Source of the DNA: Phytophthora quininea
Taxonomy: Eukaryota; Oomycota; Peronosporomycetes; Peronosporales; Peronosporaceae
NCBI GenBank assembly: GCA_011947345.1
Contig: JAAVTG010000039.1
Location: 310,001 to 374,000 of the forward strand
Reading direction: 5' to 3'
DNA length: 64,000 bases
Part shown: positions 24,072-30,530 of the stretch, piece after piece
Position numbering within the stretch: the first letter of the stretch is position 1
Layout: each line of letters opens with the position of its first letter
Translations under genes and position numbers: made by a program
Notes under the pieces: generated by a model
What the model saw: the letters and a program-made list of their open reading frames with translations, nothing else
Database searches by the model: none
Told to the model about the DNA's origin: nothing

Positions 24072-25703
24072 ATGGCGCGCCCGCGTCGAGTTGAGGGCGA
24101 TGCGGACGCCTCGCGCAGCGTGTCGGAGGAGCGCTCGCCTCTGACGCCGAGGAAGGCGGCGCTGCTCAGAGTGCAGAAGAGACCCGTCGTGGTAAGGAGG
24201 TCACAGCGCTGTCGTTGAGCTTTACAATCGCTCTAAAGTCCATGTTTGTTTGCCAGATGATGCTAGACTCCACAAGCGGAGACGAAGAAGGAAGCGCAGA
24301 CGACCGAGATGACCGTAAAGTGGCGACAGCAGCATCGGTCTGGAAGGGTGACGAGTTGTCAGACCCCACCAATTCGGATGGTATGACGATGATCCGTCTC
24401 AGTAGCGGTGTGATACTTTATAGGTGACATGTGACTGTGGTGCTGTCTTCCATAACCAGTTAAGCTGAACAATATTCGGAGATACCTCCGAGCTGCTCGA
24501 TCCTTATACGAGATGCAGTTCCAGATGAAGCGTCCTGCAGCCATTTTGAAGATGAAGCCGAACTCGGTGAGAGGAACAAGACGATGAATCTGTGCTGCTT
24601 CTTTATTTTACCAGCTGATGAGAACTTGCTGGTGGTAGTTCGGACTGAAAAGCCGCTCGACATTCGATGCACTAGCTGCGCTAGTGTCTCCGCTTCGAGC
24701 TCCCAAATTTTTGGTGCGCGAAGCTGAGCATTATGTCATGTTGACAAGACTAACACTGCGCAGACAACTGGACAGGACTGGAAATCGGTTTGTTTGAGGA
24801 GGCGTTCGAGCGCTTTGGCAAAGATTTTCACGCAATCGCCGAGCAGGTGTATAGCTAGCGCAGCTCCGTGTGGTGTATCTTTTGTTGCCAACTTTTGCCT
24901 TGTATCTACCTAGCTCTCGAACAAGACCGTACAAGATACCATTGCATTCTACTACACCTGGAAGAAGCATGGGTCATGCGCGAAAACTCGATGCCCAGAA
25001 GGCGATGGCAACTTGTCGGATGAATTTTTACCAGAACCTGAGCCAGACGTATCCAGTGAAACACTAAAGCTGATGGATCTTCTTCGAAGTACGTGTCCTG
25101 CAAGCAACTCCAAAGCTATTCGTTTCTAACCACAACGAATTCCCACAGAGCGTCAACTTTATATTCAAGACTACTTGGATGCTGCTCGAGCGATGTATTC
25201 TCCGCATCCCCCATACGCGTCGAACCACAAACGGCAAAAGGTTTCGGATTTTGGCTTGCAGCGCGTATCCTGCTTTCAGCAAGCACTTCGCGGTCTGTCA
25301 CCGTTACGCGTGCCTTCTGCATTAGGTAATTTTGCATCGCTGCTCCTTCTAACCACTGAGAAAAGAAATCTAACGGCTCGATATTGTTACGGCCTACTAG
25401 ACTCATGGACCCCCTTTGAGATCAGAGTGTTCGAGGTCGCTATCGAATGCTACGGCAAGGAGTTCCATCAGATCGCCGATGTGGTGGGTGGTATCCTATA
25501 GTGTTGCAATGCAGGTGAAAGGGATCTCACACGTTTGTCTGACGACGCAGATCGGCAGCAAGTCGTGCAGGGATGTGATCGCATTCTACTACATCTGGAA
25601 GAACGATTCTCATTACCAAGTCGTGAAGAACCGATGGGAAAGCAAGAACGAAGTTCGTCCAACCAAGAAGTCATCTACTGCCTCCAAGAACAAATGCGCA
25701 TGA
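24072..25703 (+). CDS. Double SANT-domain chromatin protein (MIER/RCOR-like)
   Basis: Nuclear co-repressor-like protein in about eight small exons. The start MARPRRVEGDADASRSVSEE is basic and acidic. After a helical exon (KLNNIRRYLRAARSLYEMQF) come two SANT domains: WTGLEIGLFEEAFERFGKDF then NKTVQDTIAFYYTWKK, and WTPFEIRVFEVAIECYGKEF then SKSCRDVIAFYYIWKN. The FYYxWKK ending is the form in MIER, MTA and RCOR proteins, which recruit class I histone deacetylases. No clear ELM2 domain is visible; either it is divergent or the protein lacks it. One exon junction (near 24560-24618) is one base out of phase. It ends at 25703, tail-to-tail and 92 bp from the DNA-kinase-like PHD protein. Confidence 0.7.
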
Positions 25704-25794: not shown

Positions 25795-27635
25795 TCAATC
25801 GATGGAGATTACATCCTGCTCTGCAACCATGCCTTCATGTGGGTAATTCTGAAGAGTCTTGCACGCAGAGCAAACCCAAGACGACGGGGATCTCCTTCAT
25901 GCTGATGCAGTAGGTGTGGAACATGCGCAGGCACATATCACACATGACTAAGTCCTCATCGTTTTCCGGCTTGGCGCAGATCTCGCAAACTTCCGCGTCG
26001 TTCATGTACGTGCGGGATACATACGCCGTGGGTTGCGTCGTTCCGGGCTCTTGCTTTTGCGGCTGCTTTTGCTCCATCAGTTTAATGTTGCGATACACCT
26101 GGTAACCATGAAGCGCATGACCGATGTTCTTCAGGTCCAGCTTCTGGTTCATGAAGTAAGGGAAATCCACTTGCAGCGCTTTGAATCCCTGAAATTGGCG
26201 CTGCTGCAGCAGACTTGCCAAAGCGGTGTACTCCGACGGGCGGGCACGATTTTTGCCGAAGATCTGAACCAGGCTCTTCCTCGCGTCCAGAGAGAGCCAT
26301 ACAAACTTGTCCGTAACGAAGTCCTCGGACAGCATGTGCAGCTCCATCATATCACACACGACTTGCCAGCACGTGAAGGACCCAAGAGCATTATCCTGGA
26401 AGCCACGGAGGGTATTAAAGATATCCTCAGAGGACGTGGAATTCTTCACAGCAACCGTGCACTCGTCGATATTCTCCAAGAACTGCTCCAGAGTCTCAAT
26501 AAAAGTCGCAACTGTGAGACTGCGGTCCCCGGCAAGTAGCCGGGTGTCTTCAGAGCGCTTCGCCATCGCCAGCAGACTGCGAGTACATCCTTTCAGTTCC
26601 ATTGATTTACCAGTAAAAACGTCGCTGGCAGCTGAACTTACCGCGTCTTGAAGATAGTGAAGTCGTCGGAACTGGGGATGCCCTTAAGTCGATGAAACGT
26701 CTCGAGTTGGTTGCAATACCTGAAAACCACAGCCATCCAGAGCACCTCACGCAGACCCAGACGGCCTTGGTGCGACTGCTGCCACCGGAGTACATGCTTT
26801 CGAAGGTACGCAGTGCTGCGGTCAAGCTCGCGATAAATGTTGCACGTTGCTGTACAAAAGAAAGTGTCAGTATCCACAACAATCACTTTTCCTTGTATGG
26901 TTCCCCGAATCTTACCAAATTTGATAAGACAGGTGTCAACTCGCGGCTCATCGTTGTTGAAAGAATAGCTAAAAAAGATCCATCATCAACAACAAGGACA
27001 TGTTCAAATGCCAGGAGTCTGCCGTACCTGTGCCACATGCCGTGACGCTGATAGACAAAGTCGTAGAAGGTAAGAGCCCCGAGCCACCAGCTCTTGTATC
27101 CACCGCCGTCCGCGCTGTCCAGGAGTTGGTCTCCCAGAAAGTTGAGTTGACGACGCTGACGCTTCGCCGGCTCCGCGCTGTCGTTCTTGATGCGCTTCAA
27201 CGGCGAGCGCGAGTTGTCATCCACGCGCTGCTTCTTCCGACGCATGTAGGTCTCCTCACACTCCTTACTGCACACTGGGACCGACGCCATGCCGCGCCTG
27301 GAGGCGGTGCGGAACTCTGGATTGGCTGCGTTGCAAATGAAGCACTCGCTCGCAGTAACTTTGGCCCCGTCCTTAGATCGCAGGCCTTTCATCTCGAGAT
27401 ACTTGGCCTCGCAGCCGACGGAGCACACGGGCACGGGCGGGGCCTTCTTGTTGGTGTTGGTAGACATGAACTCTGGGTTGGGCATGTGGCAGATGAAGCA
27501 CTCGGCTAAGTTGACGCCGGCCGACGGCGTCACCACGTCGTCAGGACCCGCGGCGTCTCCGTCCTCACTATCCGTGGCATGTGCGCTGCTGCAGCTCTTG
27601 TTGAACCAGCGGCTCAGCTGGAAGTCGTCGCCCAT
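25795..27635 (-). CDS. 5-hmU DNA kinase / thymine-pyrophosphorylase-like protein with tandem Cys motifs and a PHD finger
   Basis: Exons 27635-27028, 26968-26916, 26849-26642 and 26576-25795 join in phase and give 549 residues after one corrected base near 25887. N-terminus: two copies of a zinc-binding-looking unit (ECFICHMPNPEF...VPVCSVGCEAKYLEMKG; ECFICNAANPEF...VPVCSKECEETYMRRKK), spacing like TRASH/FCS fingers. Core: EPRVDTCLIKFATCNIYREL then DRSTAYLRKHV; REVLWMAVVFRYCNQLETF; FTCWQVVCDMMELHML; ALHGYQVYRNIK. This order (KFxxxxYRELDR, FxxxNxxET, GxFxxxQxxxD, ALHxYxxY) is that of the helical HMUDK / alpha-glutamyl-putrescinyl-thymine pyrophosphorylase family, which phosphorylates 5-hydroxymethyluracil in phage DNA. 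C-terminus: a PHD finger (VCEICAKPENDEDLVMCDMC...FHTYC); the last Cys pair (WVCSACKTL) appears only after the frame correction. A chromatin-linked DNA-base-modifying role is an inference. Confidence 0.65.
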
Positions 27636-27968: not shown

Positions 27969-28973
27969 CTAGGCGCTCAGCTTGGCCTTCAGGATCGTCT
28001 CGAGCTTGACAATGTCCGCGCTGAAGCCGCGGATACCCTCAGCCAGCTTCTCGGTGGCCATGGCGTCCTCGTTCATGCTCAGACGGAAGTCCTTCTCGGC
28101 GTAGGAGACCTTCTCGCCCGTGTAAGCCTTGGCGGCCGCCTCGGCGTCGAGCTTCTTGGTGAGCTTGTCCGTGGACTTGGTCAACTCCTCCAGAAGCGCA
28201 GGAGAGATGGTCAGGCGGTCGCAGCCCGTCAGCTCAGTGATCTCGCCCGTGTTACGGAAGCTGGCGCCCATGACGATGGTCTTGTAGCCGTACTTCTTGT
28301 AGTACTGGTAAATCTTGGTCACCGACACGACGCCGGGGTCCTCGTGGGACTCGTAGCTGGACTTGCCGGTCTTAGCCTTGTGCCAGTCCAGAATGCGGCC
28401 GACGAAGGGTGAGATGAGCGTGGCGCCGGCCTCGGCGCAGCCCACGGCCTGGGCGAAGCCGAACAGCAGCGTCATGTTGCAGGAGATGCCCTCTGTCTGC
28501 AGCTGCTTGCAGGCCTGGATGCCCTCCCAGGTGCTGGCGATCTTGATGAGGATGCGGTCCTTCTTGATGCCGGCCTTCTCGTACAGCTCGATGATGCGGT
28601 GGGCGCGGTCGATCGTGCCCTGGGTGTCGAAGCTTAGACGGGCGTCCACCTCCGTGGACACGTAGCCGGGCACGACCTTGAGGATCTCCAGGCCGAAGTT
28701 GACCGACAGCTTGTCGATGACGTAGCCCAGGCGCTCGGCCTCCGACAGGTCGGCGGACAGGCCCTTGCCGTAGGCGACGGCGTCGTCCACGAGCGCGGCG
28801 TACTGCTCCATCTGGGCGGCCTTGAACAGCAGCGACGGGTTGGTGGTGGCGTCCTGCGGCTTGTACTTGTTGATCTGCTCAAAGTCGCCCGTGTCGGCCA
28901 CCACGGTGGTGAACTGCTTGAGCTGGTCGAGCTGCGAAGCTTCGCGGGCCTTCTTGTTCGGGGATGCCGGCAT
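27969..28973 (-). CDS. Transaldolase
   Basis: Non-oxidative pentose phosphate pathway enzyme; it moves a dihydroxyacetone unit from sedoheptulose 7-phosphate to glyceraldehyde 3-phosphate through a Schiff-base lysine. Intact single exon of 334 residues, the normal length. Motifs: [35 protein letters not shown], the active-site strand [13 protein letters not shown] with the catalytic Lys, [19 protein letters not shown], and [12 protein letters not shown]. The ATG at 28973 is chosen because the residues before it, to 29084, look like UTR and [20 protein letters not shown] is a normal cytosolic start. Strong C- or G-ending codon preference, as expected for a highly expressed gene. The frame is unbroken. 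Confidence 0.97.
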
Positions 28974-29424
28974 CTTGGTGGAGTGGAGGATGAGGTGGGG
29001 AGTCTGGTGCTTGGTCTTCAGGCCGCAGATTCGAAAGTGACCTGGCCTGGATCGTGCGTCGTCAGCGCGGGTATACAAAAACAAGTGACGGCAGCGCGCT
29101 TACAAAAGCAGCATATATCCTATAAATCGGGTACGAATTACTAAACAGCTACATTTTACGCACTATTACGTGCCACCAGCGACACGTTTGACTGCGCATC
29201 AAACTTGTTTACCTTGATGACAGGACTTTGTATGCGACAGTAGTGGCAACTTGGCTCACTTGCCGATCTGGACGCACCAAGCGGAGAGCGCTATGGCGGA
29301 CATGGTAGGCCGCAAAGGGTTCGTTTGCATGCTGTTGGCGAGCACGGTTCAGGTGTCTAGTAGTTGATCGCGTTCTACTTATATTCTAAGCTGCATCACA
29401 CCGACACCTGTCCGAAGCTGCGGC
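28974..29424. other. Intergenic region: transaldolase promoter and SAM-carrier 3' end
   Basis: 451 bp between two minus-strand genes. Only short open frames occur, including a 26-codon plus-strand one at 29293 that I do not support. No repeat or RNA gene seen. Confidence 0.4.
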
Positions 29425-30530
29425 TCACAAAACTGCTGCAAACGTTGAGGTGGCCTTCTCGTACATGCCGAAGAAGACGAACCCGCCGATGCTGATCCAC
29501 ATCGTGCGCGGACCGACACCGGAAAAGAGGCGCTTCACACCTTCGTCCTTGTACACGCGTGAGAGCGTGTTCACTGTGCCATGGTACGGAACACCCTTGG
29601 CGTCCTTGCCGAGCATCAAACGCGTCTTCACCACATCGAGCGGCGTTGTGACGCACGCCGCCACGCCACCAGCAATCGAGCCGCAGACTGCGCCTTGGAA
29701 CGAGGACACGGGGGCATTCTGTTTCTTCGACCATTGGTACTGCAGTACAAACAACACGTCAGGAGTCTGTCATCAAGTGTAAAACCAAGAAAATATATTT
29801 TCCTACCTTCAGGCCCTCCCAGAGCGGAAACTGGATGAACGAGAAGGGGATCTCGCGTGCGATCATGCTCCAGTAGCCTCGGTAGAATCCCCGAATACCG
29901 TCCGCTGCGCGAATTGCATTCAACGCCTCCGGCAGCGACTTGTACACGCCTGTCTGCATGCGCTGCTTCACGATCTCCGTTGGGGTACGGACCAAACACG
30001 CTGCCTAGACATACAAAACACCGTCATACTCGTCAGCTTACTACGCTGTTCCTAGCAGCAAAATACATCAACAAAACACTTGCCATTTCACCTGAGGCGG
30101 CGGCAACCATGTGCACGAGTGGCGAGTGTCTGTGGTTGGGAGCAACGATGCCGATGGCCGACTTGGAGGTTTCGTACGTGCTGAAGAAGAGAGCGCCTGC
30201 AGCGTACAGCATTCGGTGATTAGCCTCACGGCCCTCAATTCACAGCAGCGACACCTCACGAACCTCCTGGCGCAGATCCTGCAGCAGCAGCAGACAACCC
30301 CGAGTAGACTCCTCGGAAGCCGCCAGCCTTGAAGAAGCCGTTTGCCGACTGCAGGCGCGTCTTGATGGTGTCCAGCGGGAAGAGCGCAATGTCTACAGAT
30401 GTTCCTGCCACGGCCCCGCCCTGCGGTAGCCACAACAATCAGTGACAGCTCAATAGGTGCAGCTGGTTGTCATCATCCGCACCAGCAGCGCGGGGAAGAA
30501 GCCCCTCTCGGGCGGCGCGCTGTCCGCCAT
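29425..30530 (-). CDS. Mitochondrial S-adenosylmethionine carrier-like protein (SLC25A26 type)
   Basis: Mitochondrial inner-membrane carrier with three repeats of two helices. Five exons. Exon 1 (from 30530) is [16 protein letters not shown]; exon 2 has [20 protein letters not shown] then TRLQS and GFRGVYSGL, matching the SAM-carrier first repeat (Px[DE]xx[KR]). Repeat 2 has [15 protein letters not shown], with [20 protein letters not shown], a hallmark of SAM carriers; repeat 3 has [14 protein letters not shown]. Stop at 29425. The intron after SGEM uses a GC donor (GCAAGTG, starting 30083), an otherwise good splice signal. Carrying SAM into mitochondria is the family role; no residue here proves the substrate. 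Confidence 0.87.

Follow-up and report, generated by a model that had tools for sequence, protein, structure and literature searches.

A phage-type HMUDK_hel domain combined with Cys4 modules and a PHD finger in oomycetes, a putative non-catalytic DNA reader

Gene structure

The window analyzed here, a 64,000-nucleotide stretch of the Phytophthora quininea genome (contig JAAVTG010000039.1, positions 310,001 to 374,000), carries a minus-strand gene whose product combines two Cys4 modules, the helical domain HMUDK_hel of phage and bacterial 5-hydroxymethyluracil (5-hmU) DNA kinases, and a PHD finger. The pattern of residues kept and lost in this domain across oomycetes suggests that a phage-type DNA-handling fold was domesticated as a PHD-guided, non-catalytic DNA reader or adaptor, a reading to which we give a probability of roughly 0.55.

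The gene is real and consists of four exons separated by GT-AG introns of 59, 66 and 65 nt. Splicing and translation gave a product of 536 residues with an in-frame stop at 25835 (Table 1). A first-pass annotation, made from the sequence alone, had proposed a four-exon gene of 549 residues ending at 25795; the exon count stands, but the longer model crosses a frame break inside the PHD finger (minus strand, window 25795-25892). The residues that resemble the PHD end and C-terminus of the orthologs are read in a different frame, which runs from 25878 to a stop at 25795; the orthologs are intact at this point. Either an assembly error or a recent genuine break could explain the interruption in the window copy. 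A DNA search and a PF18723 search each placed the gene at a single site in the 87-Mb, 993-contig genome, copy counts of this kind being lower bounds.

Domain composition of the encoded protein

According to hmmscan, the window protein matched PF18723 (HMUDK_hel, '5-hmdU DNA kinase, helical domain') with 73.7 bits against a cut-off of 25 (E 2.1e-20). The match spans residues 189-451 and positions 6-271 of the 281-position profile, that is, nearly the full domain. Three orthologs tested gave 72-82 bits. Scored against a profile built only from the 26 phage and prokaryote sequences, the protein reached 67.8 bits, while the highest of 500 composition shuffles reached 3.8 bits. In PHROGs, residues 190-288 matched the phage family phrog_2396 (1.7e-9). 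The family assignment, originally made from a motif pattern, is thus borne out. The four motifs on which it was based are present in the order described; the spacing given for the first one was inaccurate, since five residues rather than four separate KF and YRELDR.

The domain order is [Cys4]-[Cys4]-[HMUDK_hel]-[PHD]. Both Cys4 modules follow a C-x2-C...C-x3-C pattern and lie N-terminal of the HMUDK_hel core. By pattern, 18 of 22 oomycete sequences carry two such modules and the remaining four carry one, so that the fingers described around the core in the first-pass annotation are real and conserved. The Cys4 region of the window protein matched no Pfam family above cut-off, and a search for a second genomic place of this region found none at E up to 1. 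The PHD finger (PF00628) scored 33.5 bits against a cut-off of 24 (E 4.2e-8; profile positions 1-32 of 47). Six of its eight zinc ligands are in frame in the window copy and the last two are out of frame, leaving the C4HC3 set incomplete; the full set was found by pattern in all 21 other oomycete sequences tested. The Pfam scan of the window protein revealed no P-loop family at E up to 1 and no transposase domain. Four proteins each were submitted to PADLOC and NCBIfam, and neither assigned a family.

Table 1. Window coordinates of the gene, its domains and its diagnostic residue positions
Feature	Window position	Strand	Basis
Complete coding sequence from ATG to in-frame stop; 536 aa in four exons	25835..27635	-	Splicing and translation; PF18723 and PF00628; ortholog alignment
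Exon 1: N-terminal part with both Cys4 modules, beginning of HMUDK_hel	27028..27635	-	Spliced translation; GT donor at 27027
Exon 2, 53 nt	26916..26968	-	Spliced translation; continuity with orthologs
Exon 3: NxxRxxDR and FRYCN motifs	26642..26849	-	Spliced translation; orthologs
Exon 4: second half of HMUDK_hel, linker region, PHD finger, in-frame stop	25835..26576	-	Spliced translation
Ortholog-like PHD end and C-terminus, frame differs from the 536-aa product	25795..25878	-	Comparison with orthologs
HMUDK_hel domain (PF18723), residues 189-451, three introns within	26093..27071	-	hmmscan, E 2.1e-20; ortholog fold
PHD finger, in-frame part, residues 487-518, 6/8 zinc ligands	25892..25987	-	hmmscan and pattern
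First Cys4 module, residues 46-75 (C46, C49, C71, C75)	27411..27500	-	Pattern and orthologs
Second Cys4 module, residues 98-126 (C98, C101, C122, C126)	27258..27344	-	Pattern and orthologs
Kept motif N224-R227-D230, 26/26 phage/prokaryote and 22/22 oomycete	26821..26841	-	Alignment
GPG loop position, here S385-L386-D387; D in 22/22 oomycetes	26285..26293	-	Alignment
C-E-x-x-K position, here H446-G-Y-Q-V450	26096..26110	-	Alignment

Distribution in oomycetes

A search of 5.8 billion proteins, which relies on shared 5-residue words, returned 32 matches. An organism was named for 24 of them, all oomycetes, from the genera Phytophthora, Peronospora, Bremia, Plasmopara, Nothophytophthora, Lagenidium, Pythium, Globisporangium and Albugo; no member of Saprolegniales was among these 24. 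Owing to the 5-residue-word requirement, more distant eukaryotic relatives may have been missed. Precomputed annotation listed both PF18723 and PF00628 in 25 of the 32 matches. A profile of the core alone gave 27 matches, and the five with an organism name were again oomycetes. For comparison, the same kind of search with the phage M6 protein yielded 3327 matches, 120 of them listed, versus 32 for the oomycete protein.

No tblastn match of the oomycete core to phages was found at E up to 0.1. Scans of viral contigs gave one pattern match for the Albugo protein and 144 for the oomycete core alignment, with no relative among them.

The Phytophthora palmivora ortholog (match P0015) is labelled 'putative transposable element' by its source, which looks like a misannotation. 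Because of this label a transposon relic was considered and rejected, given the one genomic place (a lower bound), the lack of a transposase domain and the occurrence of orthologs across genera.

HMUDK_hel in phages and prokaryotes

PF18723 was present in all three hypermodified-thymine phages examined (W-14, M6 and ViI). The domain is rare in prokaryotes, occurring in 5 of 398 and 11 of 400 genomes (10 of the latter 11 above cut-off) in two phylum-wide samples, each centred on a genome chosen for holding the family, which was itself counted. Many of its members are named 'nucleotide kinase domain-containing protein' by NCBI. HMUDK_hel is only the helical partner; the kinase resides in a separate P-loop domain, which can be PF18748, a thymidylate-kinase-like domain or some other P-loop nucleotide kinase. 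Two papers show phosphorylation of 5-hmU in DNA by the phage 5-hmdU DNA kinase (PMC7653180; PMC6449724). A third lists a 5-hydroxymethyluracil kinase domain among newly validated defence domains (PMC13092281).

A P-loop kinase was fused to HMUDK_hel or adjoined it in 8 of 26 phage and prokaryote loci, a lower bound because the loci were short and the first look was by pattern. In phage SBSphiC (open reading frame L030:1502-3409), PF18748 precedes a C-terminal HMUDK_hel within one protein. In M6 and Pam3, PF18748 is encoded by the gene next to that for HMUDK_hel, and in SirVictor a P-loop nucleotide kinase gene adjoins it. Two bacterial proteins (L019, L022) carry a thymidylate-kinase-like P-loop domain fused to HMUDK_hel; at two further loci (L023, L025) a thymidylate-kinase-like gene lies just upstream. 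The count omits a ninth P-loop pattern match, at L037, which carries an AAA ATPase annotation.

In three of six plasmid loci, a MazG_C gene lies near the HMUDK_hel gene. The MazG_C pyrophosphohydrolase gene adjoins it in a Gloeothece plasmid (L033) and a Sinorhizobium plasmid (L034), and lies within about 3 kb in a Streptomyces plasmid (L037). Genes annotated as CBASS phospholipase and TIR occur near HMUDK_hel in the Gloeothece locus. The Sinorhizobium locus includes a nearby gene annotated as thymidylate synthase, which matched no Pfam family at E up to 0.01. It is possible that the loci combining HMUDK_hel and MazG_C are defence modules with base modification.

Conserved and lost residues

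The residue comparison included 26 phage and prokaryote sequences and 22 oomycete sequences (21 of the first 26 oomycete matches plus the window protein). Not included were five loci that were recovered together with M6 or from the same two genomes (L009-L012, L014), as well as two fragment matches (L027, L028). Fourteen alignment columns were invariant in all 26 phage and prokaryote sequences. Seven of these are kept in oomycetes: R197, N224, R227, D230, G355 and D365 in 22 of 22 sequences and F357 in 21 of 22.

The remaining seven do not occur in any of the 22 oomycete sequences. They comprise the alanine of the Y[ST]xAY motif, the three residues of the GPG loop, and the C, E and K of C-E-x-x-K. 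At the GPG loop, oomycetes have S or T, then mostly L and always D. The C, E and K positions hold other residues in 21 of the 22 sequences and a gap in P0017. Several replacements are themselves conserved among oomycetes (D387 in 22/22, S391 in 22/22, H446 in 21/22). The MAFFT alignment and the alignment of the window protein to the hidden Markov model agreed on where the GPG and C-E-x-x-K positions fall. Five matches fell outside the 22 through a string filter (P0001, P0011, P0019, P0020 and P0024); all five carry the same changes at the GPG and C-E-x-x-K positions, and the NxxRxxDR motif was not found in P0020 and P0024, for which the listed proteins are shorter.

In the maximum-likelihood tree, the oomycetes grouped in a single clade (support 100/100) whose stem measures 2.91 changes per column; Albugo branches first within it. 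Their attachment point among the prokaryotes is unsure because of long branches. Judging by this topology, the gene of the sampled oomycetes derives from one ancestor that predates the split of Albugo from the rest.

Predicted fold

Structural comparison was performed with a model of a phage member and a model of an oomycete ortholog. In VIA-align searches against PDB, where the absence of a fold from the lists does not count against it, both models resembled helix-hairpin-helix enzymes acting on bases and shared their top PDB groups. The 5-PmdU glycinyltransferase PUGT (PDB 8z2m/8z2n) was the best or second-best fold match of each. The fold rows hold glycosylases, a transferase and a queuosine salvage enzyme, with sequence identities of 6-12 percent for the glycosylases and the salvage enzyme. 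In BFVD, the first match of the oomycete model was the HMUDK_hel protein of Microbacterium phage Lucky3 (probability 1.00, E 1.3e-3). The core probably adopts a helix-hairpin-helix fold like that of base-flipping enzymes. Within residues 181-470 of the oomycete model, 20 of 29 ten-residue blocks had a predicted local distance difference test (pLDDT) score of 75-90, and the others 40-70.

In sequence-profile searches of solved structures, the phage alignment gave three matches with no convincing relative (best E 0.3), and the best 60 of 132 rows for the oomycete alignment all matched the PHD region.

The first-pass annotation had suggested a structural comparison with phage enzymes and had named loss of active-site residues as evidence against its view. 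The predicted fold is shared. The loss of seven of the 14 invariant positions comes close to such evidence.

Pathway partners in the genome

No match to PF18748 was found in the genome by a six-frame search that ignored introns, thymidylate-kinase-like partners not being searched for. Tet_JBP and PF18724 likewise gave no match when exons were searched singly, but controls were silent in both searches, so that absence is not proven. These three families were the only 5-hmU pathway partners covered; thymidylate kinases and thymidylate-synthase-like hydroxymethylases were not included. In P. infestans and P. sojae, N6-methyladenine is reported as the major DNA mark and 5-methylcytosine as undetectable (PMC6211444).

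Neighboring genes

A convergent gene on the plus strand (window 24914-25703) has exons resembling SANT/Myb-type repeats, a candidate assignment only, as four single-exon frames gave no Pfam match. On the minus strand lie two ordinary neighbors, a transaldolase (PF00923; window 27972-29099) and a mitochondrial carrier (PF00153; window 29425-29769).

Interpretation

The loss of the GPG and C-E-x-x-K residues alongside retention of the R/N/R/D set suggests that the chemical step was lost or changed while DNA contact was retained, and for this reason a reader or adaptor is favored. Since half of the residues that never change in this domain have been replaced, a reader or scaffold appears likelier than a base-modifying enzyme.

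The proposed course of events would be as follows. The core would descend from the helical DNA-handling partner of a phage or bacterial 5-hydroxymethyluracil DNA kinase. The phage P-loop protein has to gain access to a base within the DNA, and we infer that the helix-hairpin-helix partner opens the helix and presents the base, because this role fits both the gene fusions and the fold. The oomycete protein has no P-loop kinase domain and has lost half of the family-invariant residues, with little change afterwards. Zinc modules occupy the place that the kinase holds in fused forms, and the PHD finger lies behind HMUDK_hel. The resulting protein is probably nuclear. Its PHD finger may dock on the N-terminal H3 tail, conceivably on H3 that is unmodified at K4, given its likeness to the BAZ2 and DPF PHD fingers. 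HMUDK_hel may bind DNA and possibly probe or flip a base, and the Cys4 modules could supply further contacts.

Several points weigh against a non-catalytic reader. The seven kept invariants and the conserved replacements, D387 among them (22/22), would fit a changed activity as well. 'Invariant' stands in for 'active site' in this comparison, as the catalytic residues of the family are not given in the texts consulted. The Y[ST]xAY loss is less sure than the GPG and C-E-x-x-K losses because its position lies in a gappy stretch. The PHD finger of the window copy is incomplete in frame. As to the fold, Foldseek found nothing significant for the phage model against PDB (51 matches, best E 1.7) and no match at E 0.001 or better for the oomycete model against viral models (best 1.3e-3), and helical models may reach middling Z scores through a common arrangement. 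The oomycete model is of moderate quality (mean pLDDT 61) and represents an ortholog rather than the window protein.

The likeliest alternative is a changed enzyme, in which a helix-hairpin-helix core retains part of its pocket and releases or transfers some modified base in DNA or RNA. Its active site would be newly evolved and might center on D387, where the GPG loop used to be. The glycosylases, the transferase and the queuosine salvage enzyme among the fold rows are consistent with it, as are the conserved replacements at the lost positions. However, no known catalytic signature was identified, and the placement of D387 opposite a glycosylase aspartate follows motif order rather than a structural superposition. 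We consider this alternative unlikely.

Somewhat less probable is that the HMUDK_hel fold has ceased to contact nucleic acid and that the protein serves as a protein-protein scaffold within a chromatin complex. Such a role would be compatible with the residue losses and with the zinc modules and PHD finger that flank the domain. Under a role of the fold alone, however, the retention of R197, N224, R227 and D230, residues that never changed in the 26 phage and prokaryote members, would be unexpected.

A more specific proposal, namely that oomycetes have a base-flipping enzyme guided by histones, whose active site re-formed around D387 and whose target is a so far undescribed modified base in their DNA, is doubtful, more so than either of the two foregoing alternatives.

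The base-modifying role put forward in the first-pass annotation, in which histone marks would steer a nuclear enzyme of hypermodification or a 5-hydroxymethyluracil DNA kinase, is very improbable: the PF18723 homology is true, the domain occurs in all three hypermodified-thymine phages and seven invariant positions are kept, but the protein is without a P-loop kinase domain, the other seven positions are absent throughout the oomycetes compared, and the genome gave no PF18748, PF18724 or Tet_JBP match, the last two with silent controls.

Some chromatin marks or readers that have gone unrecognised may stem from phage base-hypermodification systems whose descendants persist in eukaryotes. A gene found at a single genomic place, ranging from Phytophthora to Albugo, linked to a PHD finger and related to hypermodification, is a concrete target for study. 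Should the protein prove to be a reader of a modified base, or an enzyme for one, a new line of work on DNA modification in eukaryotes would follow; mere DNA binding would make it a clear example of an enzyme partner turned chromatin protein. If the enzyme re-formed around D387 were real, a module of phage hypermodification would have given rise to an epigenetic eraser or writer in eukaryotes.

Comparison with known systems

The closest known proteins are the phage and bacterial HMUDK_hel proteins, called aGPT-Pplase1 in some records (e.g., phage Pam3 gp50), which are homologous to the oomycete protein over profile positions 6-271 of 281. Both groups share the R..N..R..D and G.F.......D residues and, in the models, a predicted fold group. 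The oomycete form differs in being without the GPG, C-E-x-x-K and Y[ST]xAY residues and the lysine that follows the latter in 25 of 26 phage and prokaryote sequences, in having no P-loop kinase in cis, and in its fused Cys4 modules and PHD finger. The 5-hmdU DNA kinase of SBSphiC shares HMUDK_hel, which forms its C-terminus, with the oomycete protein, whereas the PF18748 domain at its front is absent from the latter. The 637-aa protein F8WQ30 of SP10 also bears the name 5-hmdU DNA kinase.

Likeness to PUGT of phage PaMx11 is confined to the fold of both models, with no sequence match at the profile level. Judging by its title, PUGT acts on a modified thymine in DNA; its structure is reported in Wen 2024. 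Among Pfam families, ADDT (PF18724) is one of amino acid:DNA transferases. Both models also fall into the fold group of the DUF2419 queuosine salvage enzyme, and the phage model into that of the OGG1/AGOG glycosylases, each at the low identity noted above. The PHD fingers of BAZ2A/B, DPF2 and MOZ match the ortholog PHD finger in both sequence and fold, while that of the window copy is incomplete in frame.

Iyer and colleagues reportedly noted in 2013 that members of these hypermodification families occur in some eukaryotes, stramenopile algae included. In literature searches on the protein, the family and the chemistry, no paper title among the matches listed names an oomycete HMUDK_hel protein. 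The pairing of HMUDK_hel with a PHD finger is already present in database annotation, and the oomycete protein represents a new architecture within a known family.
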